A stretch of DNA of 25,445 bases from a virus, in the IMG/VR virus record IMGVR_UViG_3300008267_000827, positions 1-25,445 of that record; one strand, 5' to 3'. Below, one piece after another: positions 8,003 to 16,120 of the stretch; positions within the stretch are counted from its first letter, which is position 1; each line of letters opens with the position of its first letter. The notes under the pieces were generated by a model. It worked only from the letters and a program-made list of their open reading frames with translations. It did not search any database and was not told the origin of the DNA. Both the position numbers and the translations under genes were made by a program.

Positions 8003-9491
8003 TGTTATTTCCTTGTGCCATATTATTAATTGTATTTAAAGCTTCAACGATTGATTTTGTATTAGCACCACGAGTTTGCTCTGCTTGGTTAGCAGCATCA
8101 GCTTCAATCTTCAATTGTTTAAGAGCTAATTCAGTATTTTGTTTTAGTTCTTGTTGTTGAAGTTCTAATGCCTTACGAGCATTATCTAATTGCATTTGCT
8201 CACGTTCTAATTCAAGTTTAGCAGCATCAGTTTGAGCTTTTATCATTGCTTTTTCACGTTCAACTTGAGCCAACACTTTAGCAGCCTCTGTATTTGGGTC
8301 TGGTTTAGGTGGTTGTGGTTGTGAAAGAATTTCATTTTGCTCTGGAGTAATTTCATTCATGAATTGAGCAGCATCTTTAAATCCAGCCATGTTAATAAAC
8401 TTCGCCAATGTGTTGCGATATTGCATTAAGTTCACTAATGGATTAGATAAGCCATATGTTTGAATGATTTGTTCTTGTTTTTGTAAAATCATTTGCATTG
8501 TGGCTAATTGTTCTTGACGAGTACCAGTACCTAAACCTACGTTAATAGATACATTGTATTGGTCATTCCATTCACGAGGATTAAATGGTACAAATTTGCC
8601 ATTTATACGCACTAAACGCTCTTTATCTTGATATTTGCATAGTAACTGCAAGATGCCTTTGAAAAGCGATTTAACACCTGTTTCTGCAAAGATACGGGCT
8701 ATTAATTCAAGCTTTCCTGCACTTGCTTGTGACATTGCTGATACAGCAGCAGCTGTTACGTTTTGTAAGATGTTAGGATCAATGCCATTTTGTGAATCTG
8801 ATACACCTGTACGTCTAGCTTGTACGCCATCTAGGTATTCAAGCATTGGGAATGAACCTGCTGTAGTTGGTTGTACAGTTAATGGTACAATTGCGTTAGG
8901 ATTTTTCATTCTAACGACACCACCAGCTGTAGATGTCAATAAATCATCAAGATTTACTTGTCCTTCTACTGCACCAACACGATAATTGTTAGTTAAATAG
9001 AGGTTGTCTAGCATTTGACGTAAAACAGTTGATTTAATAAGCTGTAAATCAAGTGCACGGTCAGCTAAAGATTGTCCGTAGAATTTATGTGGGATTGGAA
9101 TTGGGCAAAGTGAGTGGAATGGAATATAATCACACTCTTTATCTTCTAAAATCTCATTAGAAGCGTATACAATGCGTCTTAATTCTGCAATACCGTCATT
9201 ATTGTAGTCAACTTTGATGTAGCATTCGTAAACTTCTACCACTTCCATAGATTGATCTTGTGAACCCATAGAATTTGGTTGTTCGCCACGAGAATAACGA
9301 GCAATTCTGTCAGGACTAAACTCTAAAGTATCACCAGATTCTAGTGAATCTACTAAATCTTTGTCAAAACCCATAGCAACTAACTCTGAACGAGTCATCA
9401 TTCTACGATGTGCTACAAATGGTGAGTCTTGTATAGTTACAGCACGTTTAGAAATTAAGAATTCTTCTGGTGGAACGTTTTCTACGACCAC
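7992..9491 (-). CDS. Portal protein, C-terminal part (separated by a frameshift)
   Basis: This 499-residue frame carries the bulk of a P22-like portal: ENVPPEEFLISKRAVTIQDS, FVAHRRMMTRSELV, YIPFHSLCPIPIPHKFYGQS, DNLYLTNNYRVGA, GVVRMKNPNAIVPL, and a C-terminal Gln/Ala/Glu-rich coiled coil (about 395-480) like the barrel helix of long portals. Its frame is open upstream to 9587, and residues encoded just before 9491 (EVKVKRTKKEGKV) also fit the portal family, so the GTG at 9491 is not a natural start. The N-terminal portion is in another frame at 9515-9949. See the separate finding. The portal forms the ring through which DNA is packaged. Confidence 0.85.
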   Translation of the reverse strand: MVVENVPPEEFLISKRAVTIQDSPFVAHRRMMTRSELVAMGFDKDLVDSLESGDTLEFSPDRIARYSRGEQPNSMGSQDQSMEVVEVYECYIKVDYNNDGIAELRRIVYASNEILEDKECDYIPFHSLCPIPIPHKFYGQSLADRALDLQLIKSTVLRQMLDNLYLTNNYRVGAVEGQVNLDDLLTSTAGGVVRMKNPNAIVPLTVQPTTAGSFPMLEYLDGVQARRTGVSDSQNGIDPNILQNVTAAAVSAMSQASAGKLELIARIFAETGVKSLFKGILQLLCKYQDKERLVRINGKFVPFNPREWNDQYNVSINVGLGTGTRQEQLATMQMILQKQEQIIQTYGLSNPLVNLMQYRNTLAKFINMAGFKDAAQFMNEITPEQNEILSQPQPPKPDPNTEAAKVLAQVEREKAMIKAQTDAAKLELEREQMQLDNARKALELQQQELKQNTELALKQLKIEADAANQAEQTRGANTKSIVEALNTINNMAQGNNNVQ

Positions 9492-9514: not shown

Positions 9515-9949
9515 TTACCTTAACTTCGTGTTCACGTTTAACATTTTGGAAACTTTTACGATACCAGTCTTTTGTAGAAGTGCGTCTTTAAACCAGTTAT
9601 GTAGAATTAAGAAGCCATCGTTTTGTCTGTAGAATACCCAGTTACAATATTCTGTAGCTTGTTGTGCAAAAGGTTCATCACCATTGTTTGTAGGTTGGAA
9701 TTCAACTACACCGTCTGTAGATGTAAATACACGAATAAGTTGTGGCAATGCTCCGTCTACAACTTCTGCGACTTCACCAGTCACAATTTGTGATTTACCT
9801 TCTACTTCGTTACCATATGGCTCACGAAGATAGTATTCAAGTGCTTCTTGACGTTCTGCAACCGTGTCTGTTTCGACATAGCCAATAGAATCATCAATTT
9901 CAGACTCGACAATGCTTTTTAATTTGTTAATATCCATTAAACTATCCAT
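9515..9949 (-). CDS. Portal protein, N-terminal part (ends early at a frameshift)
   Basis: A 144-residue frame that begins MDSLMDINKLKSIVESEID and contains EALEYYLREPYGNEVEGKSQ, EVVDGALPQLIRVFTS, CNWVFYRQNDGFLILHNWFK and ALLQKTGIVKV, all standard N-terminal portal motifs of the P22-like family. After IVKV the frame breaks, reads about ten unrelated residues and stops. The remaining portal sequence resumes in the -1 frame. The start overlaps the large terminase stop by 13 bp. The alternative start is the second Met (MDINKL). Either a sequencing or assembly error or a genuine mutation; the virion needs an intact portal. Confidence 0.85.
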   Translation of the reverse strand: MDSLMDINKLKSIVESEIDDSIGYVETDTVAERQEALEYYLREPYGNEVEGKSQIVTGEVAEVVDGALPQLIRVFTSTDGVVEFQPTNNGDEPFAQQATEYCNWVFYRQNDGFLILHNWFKDALLQKTGIVKVSKMLNVNTKLR

Positions 9950-11205
9950 TTAGTGTTTACGTTAATAGGTCTATTCCATTCTTCAGCTGGACTTTCATCC
10001 AAACCTGTTGCTAGGTATCTAAATGAGTCAGCAGCATGAGATGACCAATCATGTAATGGTCTATCATGGAATACAGCTCTTTTCTCATCATAGTGTCTAC
10101 GATAGTTACGAAGAGCATCTAAACCTTGTTTTGTTTTAGGGTCAAACCAGCATCTTGGAATTATTCGTCTAACTGCTTGTATGCCATCCATAACATTAAG
10201 GCGAGGAGCAGTAACAATTGATAATCCTGCATCTTCTAAAGTCTCCTTACGAGATTTACCAGTGCCTAATTCTCTTACTTCTACGTCATGTGGAAGTATG
10301 TGTGTAAAGTGTGCATAGTCGTTATCTCTTAACCATGACACATAATAGTCTAGACCTTGACCATGATTTTCCATATAGTCAATAAGTCTTATTTCTTTAC
10401 CAGTTAATTGTGCTACCCATATCGATGTTGAATCAGATATACCCAAGTCCCAAGAGGTATAACTTCTACATAAATCATCACGAGGTATGTCTGTGATGTG
10501 TGCTTTTTCTTCTATTTCATTTATAAGTTTAGAGTAGAAAGAACCTTCTACAGGAGCATTGAATGAACATTCAAACTCTTGCATAAATTTATCTTCACCC
10601 ATTTCTGCACGGGCTGCTGATAATTCTGATTCATTTAAAAGCTTTGTGTCACTAGATTTAAATTCTAATAATTTCCATCCTTGTCCTTCAGCAGCACGAT
10701 CTCTTAAACCCTTGAAGTGATTGTTGCCTTTGGGAGTTCCCATTGCAACACAGAAACCTAATCGGTCTGTAAGTGCAGGGCGGATAATGTCACTGAAGAC
10801 AGATGGATTTATATTACCTACTTCGTCTATGACGGCACCATCTAGATAGATACCACGAAGTGAGTCTGGGTTATCTGCACCATAAAGTGAGATACGTCTA
10901 CCCATGAAGTCTACACGAAGTTCAGCGATGTTTACTTTAGCACCTAGAGGTCTAGTATAGTTTACTAGATAGTCCCATGCGATACGTTTAGATTGGTTAT
11001 ATGTAGGAGCTACATATGCGTATCTAGGGTCTTTCTTATCACATGTAAGTGCACTATGTATAAGTTGGTTAATGGCTGATACAGTTTTACCCATACGTCT
11101 GTGGGCTACTACTACTACGAATCTGTTATCTTTAACAGCGTTGTGTATTAGTTTTTGCGGGACACGGGGTCTGTATCCAGTATCTAAAGTTTTTTGCGAC
11201 TCCAT
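9937..11205 (-). CDS. Terminase large subunit
   Basis: A 422-residue packaging motor. The ATPase Walker A is AHRRMGKT at 34-41, an adenine-binding glutamine is probably Q17 in PQKL, and Walker B with catalytic Glu is LDGAVIDE at 121-128. A coupling-type motif MGTPKGNN lies at 155-162. The nuclease domain starts SWDLGISDS, with D253 as the probable first metal ligand, and D393 in HAADSFRY as a late ligand. All expected elements are intact. Its closest relatives, by motif style, are large terminases of short-tailed phages. It lies in the late operon between a run of small basic genes and the portal gene. It would cut and pump DNA into the procapsid through the portal. Confidence 0.95.
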   Translation of the reverse strand: MESQKTLDTGYRPRVPQKLIHNAVKDNRFVVVVAHRRMGKTVSAINQLIHSALTCDKKDPRYAYVAPTYNQSKRIAWDYLVNYTRPLGAKVNIAELRVDFMGRRISLYGADNPDSLRGIYLDGAVIDEVGNINPSVFSDIIRPALTDRLGFCVAMGTPKGNNHFKGLRDRAAEGQGWKLLEFKSSDTKLLNESELSAARAEMGEDKFMQEFECSFNAPVEGSFYSKLINEIEEKAHITDIPRDDLCRSYTSWDLGISDSTSIWVAQLTGKEIRLIDYMENHGQGLDYYVSWLRDNDYAHFTHILPHDVEVRELGTGKSRKETLEDAGLSIVTAPRLNVMDGIQAVRRIIPRCWFDPKTKQGLDALRNYRRHYDEKRAVFHDRPLHDWSSHAADSFRYLATGLDESPAEEWNRPINVNTKWIV

Positions 11206-12163: not shown

Positions 12164-12580
12164 TTATTCTATACCTGTAATGATTTTTACTTCTACAGGA
12201 GAGCCATCTGGATTGCCACTAATCTCATGCTGTGTAGATTCTTTCCAACGTGCACGAGACTTAAGCCAGAAGATCATAGCTGTTGTGTTGCCTTCTTTAG
12301 CTTGTTTAAATAAAGTCTCTGCTACAGATGCGTTAGCCTCAATACGTCCTTTGTCAAGCTCTTCCTTATAGTACTTGACAAGTGTGTCATGTGAGATGGA
12401 TAGTACGGATGCGATATCTTCATGGCGTGTGCCTACTGTAGATAACATGTAAACTCTATTTCGGGTGTCCGCATTTGGAAGGTGCGGGGGTCGTCCTACT
12501 TTCCCGCCTTCTTCTATCGTGTCAATAGGGTTATCGATCGCAGCCTCTATTACTTGAGAATGATTATCATTATCGCTCAT
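12164..12580 (-). CDS. Terminase small subunit-like HTH protein
   Basis: A 138-residue protein with a helix-turn-helix at about 45-75 (VGTRHEDIASVLSISHDTLVK) followed by ELDKGRIEANASVAETLFKQA and a C-terminal IFWLKSRARWKE. GRP..., a DIA.VL.IS..TL.K HTH and FWLK.RARW.E is the usual sequence of small terminase / DNA-recognition proteins in many proteobacterial phages. It precedes the large terminase by about 1 kb, an expected order. Codons 3-8 of this gene contain a Fur-box-like 19-mer. The start ATG has AAGGTAATAAA upstream. It would recognise the packaging site. Confidence 0.85.
   Translation of the reverse strand: MSDNDNHSQVIEAAIDNPIDTIEEGGKVGRPPHLPNADTRNRVYMLSTVGTRHEDIASVLSISHDTLVKYYKEELDKGRIEANASVAETLFKQAKEGNTTAMIFWLKSRARWKESTQHEISGNPDGSPVEVKIITGIE
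12556..12574 (-). promoter_or_regulatory. Fur-box-like 19-mer inside the start of the small terminase gene
   Basis: Minus strand GATAATGATAATCATTCTC matches the textbook Fur box GATAATGATAATCATTATC at 18 of 19 positions. It overlaps codons for Asp-Asn-Asp-Asn-His-Ser, which by themselves can create such a string, so it may be coincidental. A related site lies at 15062-15080. Confidence 0.4.
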
Positions 12581-12670
12581 TTTATTACCTTAAATTAATT
12601 ATATTGTCAATCTATTTATTTATTATTTATTGCCTATATTGGCATGGATCTTGCTAGCCTCTTATCACTG

Positions 12671-12721
12671 TTACAATTTGTTACAATTTACTTATTGACA
12701 ATGTAATAGTCTTTATACAAT
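12671..12721 (+). promoter_or_regulatory. Promoter of the plus-strand island with an upstream tandem repeat
   Basis: TTGACA at 12695-12700 and TACAAT at 12716-12721 are separated by 15 bp, close to a sigma-70 promoter though with a short spacer. Just before the -35 lies a tandem repeat, TTACAATTTG TTACAATTTA (12671-12690), a possible activator or repressor site. The first island gene starts 39 bp after the -10. The region 12581-12759 also separates the island from the leftward small terminase gene. Confidence 0.6.
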
Positions 12722-12759
12722 ATGAGCATGTAACATTTATTAATTGACAAGGGGAAATC

Positions 12760-13062
12760 ATGAAATCAATCATTATATACACCGATCCTTCTCATGGATG
12801 GGCTAAAGTAACCATAAAAGAGCTATTAAAGCTTAATATACTGGATAAGATCAGTACTTATTCATATATACATAAAAACGGACTTAATGCCTATCTTGAA
12901 GAAGATTGTGACCTAGGCTTATATCTAAAGACATTAGATTCTAAAGGTATTAAGTTTAAATTCATAGAAAAGCATACAAATAAATCAAGTAAGATAAGAT
13001 CATACAATCGTTATACATTAGGGATAAATTATAAATCCCCTTTTTTAAGTACGATTAATTAA
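12760..13062 (+). CDS. Conserved phage/plasmid hypothetical protein
   Basis: A 100-residue protein beginning MKSIIIYTDPSHGWAKV and containing YSYIHKNGLNAYLEEDCD and IRSYNRYTLG. The order D..HGW.KV, then ISTYSY, then YLEEDCD, then basic R.YNR is a pattern that I recall from short proteins of mobile elements, without an assigned function. First gene after the island promoter, with AAGGGGAAATC ribosome site. No membrane segment. Expression is probably early and independent of the late operon. Confidence 0.65.
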   Translation: MKSIIIYTDPSHGWAKVTIKELLKLNILDKISTYSYIHKNGLNAYLEEDCDLGLYLKTLDSKGIKFKFIEKHTNKSSKIRSYNRYTLGINYKSPFLSTIN

Positions 13063-13065
13063 AGA

Positions 13066-13093
13066 TTGACAATTTATAACACTGTAATACACT
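13066..13093 (+). promoter_or_regulatory. Possible second island promoter
   Basis: TTGACA at 13066-13071 with TACACT at 13088-13093 (16 bp spacer, four of six -10 matches) lies 30 bp before the next gene. The region between the two island genes is only 60 bp, so an internal promoter is plausible. A third TTGACA (13360-13365) with GATAAT 16 bp later occurs inside the 13329 gene and may be chance. Confidence 0.4.
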
Positions 13094-13122
13094 ATATAAA
13101 CTTAACAATATAAAGGATTAAT

Positions 13123-13326
13123 ATGAATACCATGCAAGGATTAAAAGAGTACATAAAAGCATTAGAGAATCATGATTGGCATTATAGCTATAGCGATGAT
13201 CATCAAGCCTATATGAAAGGCATTAATGAAAAGCATAATTTAAGGCAGCTAGCAATGACATATGACCATAATTTTCAAATATGGGATAGTGTCGCACCTG
13301 ATCAATATAAACAAGGGGCATATTAA
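13123..13326 (+). CDS. Small hypothetical protein
   Basis: A 67-residue protein, MNTMQGLKEYIKALENHDWH then YSYSDDHQAYMKG, followed by RQLAMTYDHNFQIWDSVAP. It is rich in Tyr, His and Asp. I do not recognise it. An AAAGGATTAAT ribosome site precedes the ATG. It belongs to the plus-strand island operon, upstream of a close neighbour 2 bp away. Confidence 0.6.
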   Translation: MNTMQGLKEYIKALENHDWHYSYSDDHQAYMKGINEKHNLRQLAMTYDHNFQIWDSVAPDQYKQGAY

Positions 13327-13328
13327 TC

Positions 13329-13505
13329 ATGAATAAACTTATCAAGGCTTTAAATAGTATTGACAATGTAAAACGATTTGAGATAATTACAATATCCGAT
13401 AAGTCCGATGATCAATTCTTATATGATGATGAATTAGCGGACTATAACAATATGCTAGCTAGTAAGCATGGGGATTATTCATCAATCAATTTAGAGGATC
13501 AATAA
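13329..13505 (+). CDS. Small acidic hypothetical protein
   Basis: A 58-residue ORF (ATG at 13329), beginning MNKLIKALNSIDNVKRFEI and ending SINLEDQ. It is acidic, with an Asp-rich middle (DKSDDQFLYDDELAD). It starts 2 bp after the previous stop and is followed 2 bp later by the next gene, which strongly suggests an operon. No function can be assigned. Confidence 0.5.
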   Translation: MNKLIKALNSIDNVKRFEIITISDKSDDQFLYDDELADYNNMLASKHGDYSSINLEDQ

Positions 13506-13507
13506 CA

Positions 13508-13591
13508 ATGACTATTATTAAAGATTTTTTAATACTTGCTTTTTTCTTTATAAGCTTTTATAGCTGGATTCTTTTATTCTTAATATTTTAA
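13508..13591 (+). CDS. 27-residue single-span membrane peptide
   Basis: A tiny ORF that starts MTIIKDFLILAFFFISFYSW and ends LLFLIF. Nearly all residues after Lys5 are hydrophobic, so it would be one transmembrane helix. It lies 2 bp after the preceding gene, fitting an operon, and is followed by AAGGGGCTTAAA before the next start. Could be a holin-like or toxin-like membrane peptide, but this is a guess; a random AT-rich ORF is also possible. Confidence 0.4.
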   Translation: MTIIKDFLILAFFFISFYSWILLFLIF

Positions 13592-13602
13592 AGGGGCTTA
13601 AA

Positions 13603-13842
13603 ATGATTAATCAAAATTTCGATAGCGGTTACAATGCGGGGCTTGATGCCCTTGAAAAACTGTCTTTAATAGATCAAAATCCCGATCATGCCATGTTAGC
13701 GGGCATTTTATCGTCAATAATGAATTGCATTTATTATTATGCCCCTAGCGAAAAGGCAGCTAGTGAGCTTGTACAATTTGCCGTTGATTTTGCAAAAGAC
13801 GAAAATGCCAAAATAGGCATGAATTTACCTAAAGGGGCTTAA
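13603..13842 (+). CDS. Small helical hypothetical protein
   Basis: A 79-residue protein, MINQNFDSGYNAGLDALEKL, with HAMLAGILSSIMNCIYYYAP and a C-terminal helix rich in Ala, Asp and Lys. It may be mostly helical. Preceded by AAGGGGCTTAAA, a G-rich ribosome site repeated before other island genes. It ends 2 bp before the next gene. Function unknown. Confidence 0.6.
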   Translation: MINQNFDSGYNAGLDALEKLSLIDQNPDHAMLAGILSSIMNCIYYYAPSEKAASELVQFAVDFAKDENAKIGMNLPKGA

Positions 13843-13844
13843 AT

Positions 13845-14030
13845 ATGTATATTATCGATTTTAAAGAAAAGAAAATAGCCCGTTTTGATAATCAGGGCTT
13901 AATGCTGTTTATGAATGAATTATTCAAATATAAAGACAGCGGGCTTATAAATCAACGTTATTTCTTTTGTAATACAAAAAAACTAGCTAATCAAATAATA
14001 AAGCAAGCTTTAGGCGGTAAGCCTATTTAA
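13845..14030 (+). CDS. Small hypothetical protein
   Basis: A 61-residue basic protein, MYIIDFKEKKIARFDNQGL with FCNTKKLANQIIKQALGGKP at the C-terminus. No known motif. It shares the AAGGGGCTTAAAT ribosome site type of its neighbour and starts 2 bp after it. Part of the same operon; 83 bp with hairpins separate it from the larger downstream gene. Confidence 0.55.
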   Translation: MYIIDFKEKKIARFDNQGLMLFMNELFKYKDSGLINQRYFFCNTKKLANQIIKQALGGKPI

Positions 14031-14039
14031 ATATATCTT

Positions 14040-14083
14040 TATGCTTATTTTATTAAGTAAGCATAAGGGCTATATTTAGCCTT
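14040..14083 (+). promoter_or_regulatory. Tandem hairpins before the Cys-containing gene
   Basis: TATGCTTA (14040-14047) pairs with TAAGCATA (14058-14065), followed at once by a second stem, AAGG(G)CTA with TAGCCTT across TATT (14064-14083). They lie in the only gap over 80 bp inside the island. They have no strong U tract, so attenuation or RNA processing is more likely than termination. Confidence 0.4.
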
Positions 14084-14113
14084 AACAATTACAATTATAA
14101 AAAGGGTTATAAA

Positions 14114-14851
14114 ATGAGACTATTATCTATTAATCACGATACAAAAACAATTAAAGGGCTTGAAAAAGGGTACTTAACGGGAATTATGTATTTAGCCCCG
14201 TATACTTTAGGCGGCAAAAACTTATGCCCTTTTGCAAAAGCTGCAGGCTGCGAAAAAGCTTGCCTTTATACCGCAGGCAGGGGCATTTTTAACAATGTAC
14301 AAAAAGCCCGCCTTAATCGTACGGCATTATTCAATAATGATATCAATGCATTTATGAATAAGCTTGCTATTGAGATCGATTGCTTGCAAAAAACAGCTAT
14401 TAAAAAGGGTTTAATTCCCGTTATACGTTTAAACGGTACTAGCGACATTGAATTCGAAAATATTAAATTCGATTATGAATTTATGAATAATAAAGTCCGC
14501 AGCGTCACTATTTTTGAATTATTCCCTGATATTCAATTCTATGACTATACAAAAAATCCAAATAGAAAAGAATTGCCAAAAAATTATGACTTAACCTTTA
14601 GCTATTCAAATAAATCAGAATTTCATCGCTTTAATGAAATAGCTATTAAAAACAAAATGAGAATTGCCGTTGTCTTTTCCGATCAAAACTTGCCAGCCTA
14701 TTATCTTAATAGGCAAGTATTAAACGGGGATGAATCGGACTTAACATTTTTAACCCCTAAAAATACTATTTTAGGATTATATGCTAAAGGCAAGGCCAAA
14801 AAAGAGGATAACGGGTTTATTGTAAAAACAATCCCTATTTTAGCTATTTAA
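14114..14851 (+). CDS. Conserved Cys-containing phage/plasmid protein (GP88/DUF7227-like)
   Basis: A 245-residue protein. Residues about 26-60 carry the conserved block LAPYTLGGKNLCPFAKAAG, CEKACLYTAGRG and then a basic helix; C38, C46 and C50 may bind a metal or Fe-S cluster. Other conserved blocks are PVIRLNGTSDIEFE (about 102), ELFPDIQFYDYTKNPNR (about 136) and a C-terminal GLYAKGKAKKE. This matches a family of phage and plasmid proteins of unknown function that I recall as GP88/DUF7227. The DYTKNPNR segment and the paired acidic residues recall a nucleic-acid enzyme, but I cannot assign an activity. It is the last and largest gene of the island, closed by a terminator 20 bp downstream. 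Confidence 0.7.
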   Translation: MRLLSINHDTKTIKGLEKGYLTGIMYLAPYTLGGKNLCPFAKAAGCEKACLYTAGRGIFNNVQKARLNRTALFNNDINAFMNKLAIEIDCLQKTAIKKGLIPVIRLNGTSDIEFENIKFDYEFMNNKVRSVTIFELFPDIQFYDYTKNPNRKELPKNYDLTFSYSNKSEFHRFNEIAIKNKMRIAVVFSDQNLPAYYLNRQVLNGDESDLTFLTPKNTILGLYAKGKAKKEDNGFIVKTIPILAI

Positions 14852-14870: not shown

Positions 14871-14900
14871 AAGGGGCTTTTTAGCCCCTTTTATCTTTTC
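14871..14900 (+). terminator. Strong intrinsic terminator of the plus-strand island
   Basis: AAGGGGCT (14871-14878), TTTT loop, AGCCCCTT (14883-14890), then TTATCTTTTC. An eight-base GC-rich perfect stem with a U-rich tail ends transcription of the island 20 bp after the last stop. Confidence 0.85.
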
Positions 14901-15177: not shown

Positions 15178-15351
15178 TTACTTTTTCTTCTTTTTAGACA
15201 TTCCTGCTTCTGATAAAGCGATTGCAATTCCTTGCTTTGTGGACTTGACAATATTACCGCTCTTACCTGAATGGAGTGTGCCTTTTTTAAACTCACTCAT
15301 TACCTTGCCTACTTTGGCAAGTTTAGCTTTCTTTGTGGTAGGTTTTTTCAT
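15178..15351 (-). CDS. Small basic protein of the DUF6496 type
   Basis: A 57-residue protein starting MKKPTTKKAKLAKVGKVMSE and containing FKKGTLHSGKSG, then KQGIAIALSEAGMSKKKKK. The KVM.EFK.G.LHSG.SG..V....QAIAIALSEAG pattern is that of a small family of phage and bacterial proteins (DUF6496, from memory); function unknown. It begins just after the late-leader terminator, so it should be the first gene expressed by antitermination from the late promoter. Confidence 0.7.
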   Translation of the reverse strand: MKKPTTKKAKLAKVGKVMSEFKKGTLHSGKSGNIVKSTKQGIAIALSEAGMSKKKKK

Positions 15352-15360
15352 ATTTAATCC

Positions 15361-15386
15361 AAAAAAAATCCCTCACGAAGAGGGAC
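15361..15386 (-). terminator. Intrinsic terminator of the late leader (tR'-like)
   Basis: On the minus strand TCCCTC, loop TTCGT, GAGGGA followed by a run of eight T. It lies 60-80 bp downstream of the perfect late promoter, and directly upstream of the first late gene. A leader terminator just after the promoter is the standard target of Q-type antitermination. Confidence 0.8.
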
Positions 15387-15448
15387 TTGAAGGAGACTAC
15401 GGGAGAGGTTGAGACAGAAACGATAGACGCACCTATCCCAACGCCTGA

Positions 15449-15478
15449 ATTATATCATAAGTGATAGTGCTCTGTCAA
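15449..15478 (-). promoter_or_regulatory. Consensus sigma-70 late promoter (pR'-like)
   Basis: Minus strand: TTGACA (15473-15478) and TATAAT (15449-15454) separated by 18 bp, both hexamers perfect. The -35 overlaps the stop codon of the Q-like gene, so promoter and gene are physically linked. Transcription would begin near 15442 and reach the terminator at about 15385. It is the strongest promoter match in the window. Confidence 0.85.
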
Positions 15479-15801
15479 GCGACAATACGCCTTGAAGCCA
15501 TAGTTAGCATGTTATCAAAAGCAAGCCCTAATTGATACTCATAATCATCGTATTTAGTAGTCTTGAGGTATCTAGCATAGACAGCTTCTTTTTGATCTTG
15601 AGGCAAGCTATGAATGATCGCATCTATCGTCCTGACATTTTCCATGTCCATGTCTGACACCATATCCTCGAAAGCATCAGAGGTTGACTCGCCTCCAGAT
15701 ACCATGCCTAAAGACTTGCTAGGGTATCCAAGCTTTGTGCTTGGTGCTTGCATCCATAAAGCCCAATCATCTAAAATCTGCTTAAGTCTGTCCGTGTGCA
15801 T
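15475..15801 (-). CDS. Q-like late antitermination / sigma region 4-like protein
   Basis: A 108-residue protein starting MHTDRLKQILDDWALWMQA and ending LTMASRRIVA. The sections DDWALWMQAP, GYPSKSLGMVSGGEST and IDAIIHSLPQDQKEAVYARYLKT are typical of phage antiterminator Q proteins, whose C-terminal part resembles sigma-70 region 4. The gene is last in the leftward early operon. Its stop codon lies within the -35 of the late promoter, and the promoter is followed by a terminator. Likely binds at that promoter and modifies RNA polymerase to pass terminators. Overlaps the winged-helix gene by 20 bp, with AGGAAGCTA before the ATG. Confidence 0.65.
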   Translation of the reverse strand: MHTDRLKQILDDWALWMQAPSTKLGYPSKSLGMVSGGESTSDAFEDMVSDMDMENVRTIDAIIHSLPQDQKEAVYARYLKTTKYDDYEYQLGLAFDNMLTMASRRIVA

Positions 15802-16120
15802 TAGCTTCCTCTTCTGTGTGAATATAAATACTCTTTATGCGACCACTAAAGTCTGGCATAGGATGAAATATCTCTTGCAACATTGGCACTTTAGTTTTCC
15901 AATAGAGATGAAACTTATTAGACTCATCAGCACTAATGACACCTTGTGAGTGTAAGTTATAAACAATGCCTTGAACCTTTCTAGCGTTTGCTTTTAATTG
16001 ACTAGCAATTTCTGGAATAGTTAAAGGATTATCGTCTATAAGATTGATAATAAGATTTCTTAATGTTTCTATGTCAACTGCTTTTCCTTCTACTTCGTAT
16101 TGTCTTTGATGAGGTTTCAT
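15782..16120 (-). CDS. Winged-helix DNA-binding-like protein
   Basis: A 112-residue protein. Residues about 18-65 look like a winged helix (LRNLIINLIDDNPLTIPEIA, ASQLKANARKVQGIVYNLHS, QGVISADESNKFHLYW). The C-terminal 40 residues lack clear motifs. It overlaps the Q-like gene by 20 bp and the preceding gene by an ATGA. It may regulate transcription near the replication operon, perhaps with Q. I cannot name the family. Confidence 0.6.
   Translation of the reverse strand: MKPHQRQYEVEGKAVDIETLRNLIINLIDDNPLTIPEIASQLKANARKVQGIVYNLHSQGVISADESNKFHLYWKTKVPMLQEIFHPMPDFSGRIKSIYIHTEEEANAHGQT

Follow-up and report, generated by a model that had tools for sequence, protein, structure and literature searches.

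A probable late switch of the Q / pR' / tR' type, related to phage 21, in environmental phages

Introduction

How does the virus whose DNA is analyzed here (a window of 25,445 nucleotides, comprising the whole stretch under study) turn on its late genes? An earlier note had read the junction between a Q-like gene and the first late gene as a Q / pR' / tR' switch of lambdoid design, in which an antiterminator binds the promoter DNA and lets polymerase ignore a terminator in the leader. Our analysis of this locus and its relatives leads us to agree that it is very probably a Q / pR' / tR' switch, and one of the 21 class, because the layout, its conservation across more than 80 phages and a homology to 21Q that is weak in the protein but consistent all speak for this reading; two points of the original proposal call for correction, a Q site in the promoter spacer, which is not evident, and the rarity of the system, which does not apply to P22-like phages.

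Results

A perfect extended promoter at the end of the Q-like gene

The Q-like gene, promoter, leader, terminator and DUF6496 gene all lie on the minus strand, and the features picked out by the earlier note (a Q-like stop codon overlapping TTGACA, a perfect TATAAT, a hairpin with eight T and a gene after it) were confirmed in coordinates and sequence. The end of the Q-like gene (15475..15801) runs into TTGACA, TATAAT, a structured leader of ~80 nt, a hairpin with a T8 run and finally the DUF6496 gene. More precisely, the TGA of the Q-like gene (15477-15475) lies inside the TTGACA -35 element (15478-15473), which is identical in 81 of 81 sequences, and a spacer of 18 leads to the extended -10 element TATGATATAAT (TRTGN plus TATAAT, 15449..15459). 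The TATAAT itself (15454-15449) is likewise identical in all 81, the TG at the extended position is found in 77, and in the window TATG precedes the -10, with TATGA closing the spacer. Transcription would start at about G15442. The pattern TTGACA-N16..19-TATAAT occurs once in the 25-kb window compared with 0.02 expected occurrences, and of all promoter-like sites in the window that match at 10 or more of 12 positions, only this promoter has a terminator-like hairpin within 170 nt downstream.

The junction is conserved among relatives

A search with the Q-like protein yielded its 80 closest IMG/VR loci (75-98% identity), and the window and these relatives share, in 81 of 81 cases, both perfect hexamers, a spacer of 17 or 18 and a Q stop codon overlapping the -35. 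Conservation in relatives, which the earlier note had proposed as a check, is therefore borne out by the presence of the junction in 80 of 80 IMG/VR relatives and in the phage record MW202481; a hairpin with a T run follows 60-80 nt downstream of the promoter in 79 of the 80, and the contig of the other one (L017) ends first. Among phage records, the Q-like protein matches MW202481 (L204; 100% identity, annotated as "antitermination protein Q"), Methylophilales phage Venkman (52%) and EBPR podovirus 1 (38%). The order of Q, promoter, leader and terminator returns in two groups whose Q proteins are more divergent, namely clade C (L186-L196) and the group of the EBPR podovirus (L084/L200), where the gene of the small terminase subunit (TerS) stands directly behind the switch in L084. 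The Venkman group (in Venkman itself, L203, at 12602-12928) and L198 carry a Q homologue with no adjoining promoter, the target site of which must, judging from this arrangement, lie elsewhere in the genome, although our search did not find it. One candidate for such a target, a perfect TTGACA-19-TATAAT at position 1478 of Venkman, was dropped because a similar pattern matches 57 contigs without evident relation. Prophage relatives were found in none of 84,980 bacterial and archaeal species genomes searched by the Q protein and by the DNA element and junction, so that, for all their lambdoid appearance, no prophages of this kind were detected there.

The Q-like protein weakly resembles 21Q

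The 108-aa product of the Q-like gene is a likely antiterminator with a predicted sigma-region-4-like fold, to judge by its homologues, by weak family matches and by a structural model. On its own, the window protein has no match above cut-off in Pfam, PHROGs or NCBIfam, nor in the PDB by sequence, and its match to PF08281 (sigma-70 region 4) is weak. PF06530 (Phage_antitermQ) gives no match for the window protein itself and matches two members of its group below the 26-bit cut-off (L190, E 3.6e-4; Venkman, E 0.0086). E. coli QuuD is a firm member of PF06530 and matches 21Q of known structure (E 7.6e-7), and an hhalign comparison of 40 relatives of the window protein with eight 21Q/QuuD-type proteins gave E 8e-5 and a probability of 61% over 70 N-terminal columns. 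PF03589 (Antiterm), the family of the 82/QuuQ type of Q, has no Pfam match to the window protein or its relatives.

In the AlphaFold model (pLDDT 78), a single helix at the N terminus, a disordered stretch and a helical domain resembling sigma R4 can be distinguished. Foldseek found no significant PDB match for the model, which we count against a Q switch together with the position of the window protein below the cut-offs of the Q families. A second structural alignment placed 21Q (6jnx_P) in a tie for the top with a middling Z of 6.1 over 90 aa, and among the leading structural matches only 21Q spans the model in full; the remaining ones are sigma R4 domains with Z of 5-6 over about 60 aa. 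Taken together, sequence and model make it likely, though not certain, that the protein belongs to the 21Q superfamily, with a homology that is weak but consistent.

The leader combines a pause consensus, a folded 5' part and a terminator

The initial transcribed region, which we place at +1 to +15 (15428..15442), bears by its conservation the pause consensus G-10 Y-1 G+1 (G+5, C+14, G+15). TTGG (+2 to +5), A+9, C+14 and G+15 are invariant across 48 distinct junctions, and the consensus with its -1 position at +14 to +17 is present in 51 of 51 distinct leaders, for each of which chance would give ~0.20, the leaders being related and not independent. Leaders of clade C fit this consensus despite their different sequence and length. 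A -10-like pause hexamer is fair in most relatives and degenerate in the window (GATAGG).

Folding of the whole leader gives a z of -6.4 with a strongly folded 5' part, a feature that goes beyond the earlier note. The stem of this 5' hairpin (15408..15442) is retained in all groups with differing sequences; in clade A, one pair changes from G-C to A-U in 7 of 41 distinct leaders and 4 are mismatched, which gives modest support from covariation. Between this hairpin and the terminator lies a predicted single-stranded linker (15389..15407) with a CTCTCC(C)GTA motif, kept in relatives as TYTCCGTA. The window reads CTCTCCCGTA at 15398-15407 (minus strand), with one extra C compared with the CTCTCCGTA of its nearest relatives and MW202481 that may be either a private insertion or a sequencing error.

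The intrinsic, tR'-like terminator (15361..15388) consists of a 9-bp hairpin (15388-15366) and a T8 run ending at 15361 and spans +55 to +82. Hairpin and T run recur in relatives with different stems (AAGTCCCTC/GAGGG, TCCCCTG/CAGGGGA or AAGCCCTT/AAGGGCTT), and L025, L034, L035, L046 and L074 carry two different terminators in tandem; such replacement of the stem sequence with retention of the structure is as expected of a real terminator. In MW202481, an annotated hypothetical CDS (8182-8439) spans the leader and terminator and continues into DUF6496, probably as the result of an over-extended gene start.

A structured leader with a conserved single-stranded TYTCCGTA linker could also belong to what is mainly a free-standing small RNA gene, made up of promoter, leader and terminator, whose leader acts in trans and to which the Q-like protein is unrelated. 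The recurrence of CTCTCCGT within the terminator loop of clade C would fit this idea, and there is a precedent in StxS, which in Stx phages arises by processing of the pR'-tR' transcript (PMC7873438). We nevertheless consider it improbable, given that in clades A and C the unit always sits right behind Q, that the late gene begins about 10 nt past the T run (ATG of DUF6496 at 15351) and that anti-Shine-Dalgarno pairing was not convincing, with one strong site for the linker of MW202481 and the consensus linkers of clade A behaving like shuffles. A side role as small RNA would be compatible with a Q switch.

Conserved DNA lies upstream of the -35, and the spacer is poorly conserved

The earlier note had looked to the region between -35 and -10 for a Q-binding element, and none is evident there. 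Nowhere does the junction vary more than in the spacer, which outside TRTGN has a mean information of 0.60 bits compared with 1.82 bits in the 20 nt upstream of the -35; the spacer holds no clear Q-binding repeat and no TGAGCA repeat, and a repeat signal at offset 7 is weak (z 3.2, 11 representatives). The conserved DNA is instead the stretch GCTTCWAGGCGTATWGTCGC (15479..15498, ~-56 to -37), which lies within the last Q codons and adjoins the -35. The five least variable codons of degeneracy at least 4 in the Q gene are A102, R104, R105, V107 and A108, and the chance that the five lowest of 39 eligible codons all fall among the six eligible ones in codons 102-108 is about 1e-5 if they were placed at random. 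R105 is CGT in 59 of 60 distinct genes, whereas CGT makes up 7 of 242 arginine codons in other places. Overlap with the -35 accounts for the A108 codon only, whose last base doubles as the first T of TTGACA. In the Venkman group, where no promoter is present at this place, the equivalent codons vary. Synonymous constraint at codons 102-108 and variation in the promoterless group together indicate that a DNA element under strong synonymous constraint is located at about -56 to -37 inside the Q gene.

This element has no second copies and occurs once per phage genome. Candidates for its ligand are Q, alpha-CTD or some other factor. Direct loading of Q at this site is uncertain, because a polymerase paused near +14 would have its RNA exit channel at a distance from the element. 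We only tentatively raise, and ourselves rather doubt, the idea that the loading or recognition site of Q lies upstream of the -35 within the 3' end of its own gene and that the leader hairpin and TYTCCGTA linker aid the loading or serve as a small RNA.

The region from about -56 to -37 is also the zone where activators and alpha-CTD bind, and the predicted sigma-R4-like fold would suit a protein that activates initiation via the upstream element in the manner of sigma region 4, with the hairpin as an ordinary insulator. Yet a perfect -35, -10 and TRTG should make an activator unnecessary, an insulator placed there would cut off the very operon whose first gene it precedes, and the protein homology points to antiterminators, all of which makes this explanation very improbable. 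Least probable of all is that the leader works through RNA alone, as an antiterminator or attenuator (HK022 put-like or ligand-responsive) that does not need the Q-like gene. The conservation of a 5' hairpin and a linker ahead of the terminator and an alternative pairing of 5' GGGA with linker UCUCC predicted in some leaders would agree with it. Against it, a search of Rfam at the leader found nothing beyond chance, the leader is strictly adjacent to a Q homologue and changes its sequence along with the Q group, and the perfect promoter and pause consensus suit loading of a protein better.

The late genes lie beyond an inverted island

The early operon, read rightward, encodes a helicase, NinB, an HNH protein and a winged-helix protein, with Q as its last gene. 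The winged-helix gene (15782-16120, minus strand) overlaps the start of Q and is 83-96% identical in some relatives and 45-57% in others; where it drops to 45-57%, Q stays at least 75% identical, which suggests allele exchange directly upstream of Q.

The first gene behind the terminator encodes a small basic DUF6496 protein (15178..15351, minus strand; PF20106, E 4e-10), as it does in nearly all relatives that are long enough. It is followed by an accessory island in opposite orientation (12760..14851, plus strand) that includes a GP88-family gene (PF17338, E 3e-40). Inverted genes of varying content sit at this same fixed position in the clade A relatives that reach TerS, and those long enough run from DUF6496 through inverted genes to a late-strand TerS 2.4-4.7 kb after Q. 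In the window, the terminase lies about 2.8 kb beyond the switch and past the island, an arrangement likewise absent from the earlier note: the small subunit (12164..12580, minus strand; phrog_309, E 6e-21) is the first gene of the structural late block, and the large subunit (TerL) is encoded at 9937..11205 (minus strand; phrog_2, E 9e-36). The late block of MW202481 amounts to about 28 kb and includes a lysis gene. A Methylophilales host is plausible because TerL is 74% identical to the terminase of Venkman, a Methylophilales phage, and the suggestion of the earlier note that the host is probably a methylotroph can be kept at that strength.

In the window and in L028 and L067, there is no other late-strand promoter of comparable quality between Q and TerS (in the window, the sole other late-strand promoter-like site before TerS is weak, with AATAAA), and from this the late transcript would be expected to cross the island in antisense. 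The island has promoter-like sites of its own, and some relatives show further sites with 10-11 of 12 matches within it. A terminator of the island faces the late promoter (14871..14890, plus strand; also in L028, L061, L067 and L080), and in several relatives the terminator facing DUF6496 is a strong one; as a bidirectional second block to late transcription it was rejected, the late strand having the stem without a T run.

Discussion

A model of late gene activation

The promoter and terminator, their order and conservation and the layout of the operon are established at the level of sequence, and they would fit a switch that works as follows. Host RNA polymerase would start constitutively at the perfect extended promoter and pause promoter-proximally, probably near +14 to +20. 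Without Q, it would terminate at the hairpin about 80 nt downstream, so that nothing but a short leader RNA is made. After expression of the Q-like protein from the early operon, the protein would bind the promoter DNA and load onto the paused polymerase at a site that we can only infer, making the enzyme presumably resistant to the terminator. The polymerase would then transcribe DUF6496, cross the inverted island and proceed to the end of the late block, which in the complete relative measures about 28 kb. Against a Q switch, we also count the spacer lacking a clear repeat, the degenerate GATAGG, the promoterless Q homologue of Venkman and the promoter-like sites of the island.

If correct, this would extend Q regulation of the 21 class to widespread environmental phages, probably of Methylophilales, with a Q-like protein that falls below the cut-offs of current family models; two papers on OM43 phages do not discuss antitermination. 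The natural variants, in which promoter, pause, terminator and upstream element are kept and spacer and stems vary, offer a way to test what Q loading requires of DNA and RNA. From the fixed position of the inverted island we predict antisense late transcription through accessory genes, which could shut them off.

Comparison with known systems

Phage 21 has a Q-binding element of direct TGAGCA repeats with contacts at -21 and -13, and the arrest of the 21Q-engaged complex occurs at +14 (PMC6606751). JEP4 and Hafnia phage Pocitis76 carry Q genes of the 21Q type that end just before TTGACA, with TGAGCAAATGAGCA (or TGAACAAATGAGCA) in the spacer, and the short leader of JEP4 closes in a hairpin with T7. 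The window shares with phage 21 and JEP4 the end of Q near TTGACA, the short leader, the hairpin with its T run and the late genes behind it, and with phage 21 probably also a small protein modelled as sigma-R4-like with an N-terminal helix, and a pause expected near +14. It differs from 21Q in the length of the protein (108 instead of 162 aa) and a very low sequence identity, and from phage 21 in a poorly conserved spacer without TGAGCA direct repeats, a complete extended -10, conserved DNA upstream of the -35 and an additional 5' leader hairpin and linker. Moreover, DUF6496 and an inverted island precede the terminase in the window, whereas phages of the 21 type have lysis genes directly downstream. 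The remark in the earlier note that this is not a common system for P22-like phages does not apply in this form, as ST160 and JEP4 (both Lederbergvirus and P22-like) carry 21Q-type Q genes, the latter in the same layout.

The proposed logic, in which transcription starts constitutively, pauses close to the promoter and passes the leader terminator only with Q, is that of lambda Q and phage 82 Q, whose site lies between -35 and -10 (PMC6606751), but the protein has no sequence match to them (PF03589 representing the 82-like type). AlpA of Pseudomonas aeruginosa is an antiterminator bound to promoter DNA with a 21Q-like fold and a terminator about 54 nt from the start (PMC7969949, PMC9371919), though it governs host lysis genes and its binding site, GGGACG, lies between -10 and -35. 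In the Caulobacter gene transfer agent, GafZ serves as antiterminator for a phage-like block of structural genes (PMC11150451) but acts together with GafY and IHF, and its terminator lies behind the first gene. With lambdoid phages, the window has in common that Q stands at the end of an early operon with NinB. The principle of the 21 class is already known and the layout appears nearly identical in JEP4; what seems new here is the upstream element under constraint next to a poorly conserved spacer, the leader with its hairpin, pause consensus and TYTCCGTA linker, and the inverted island before the terminase.
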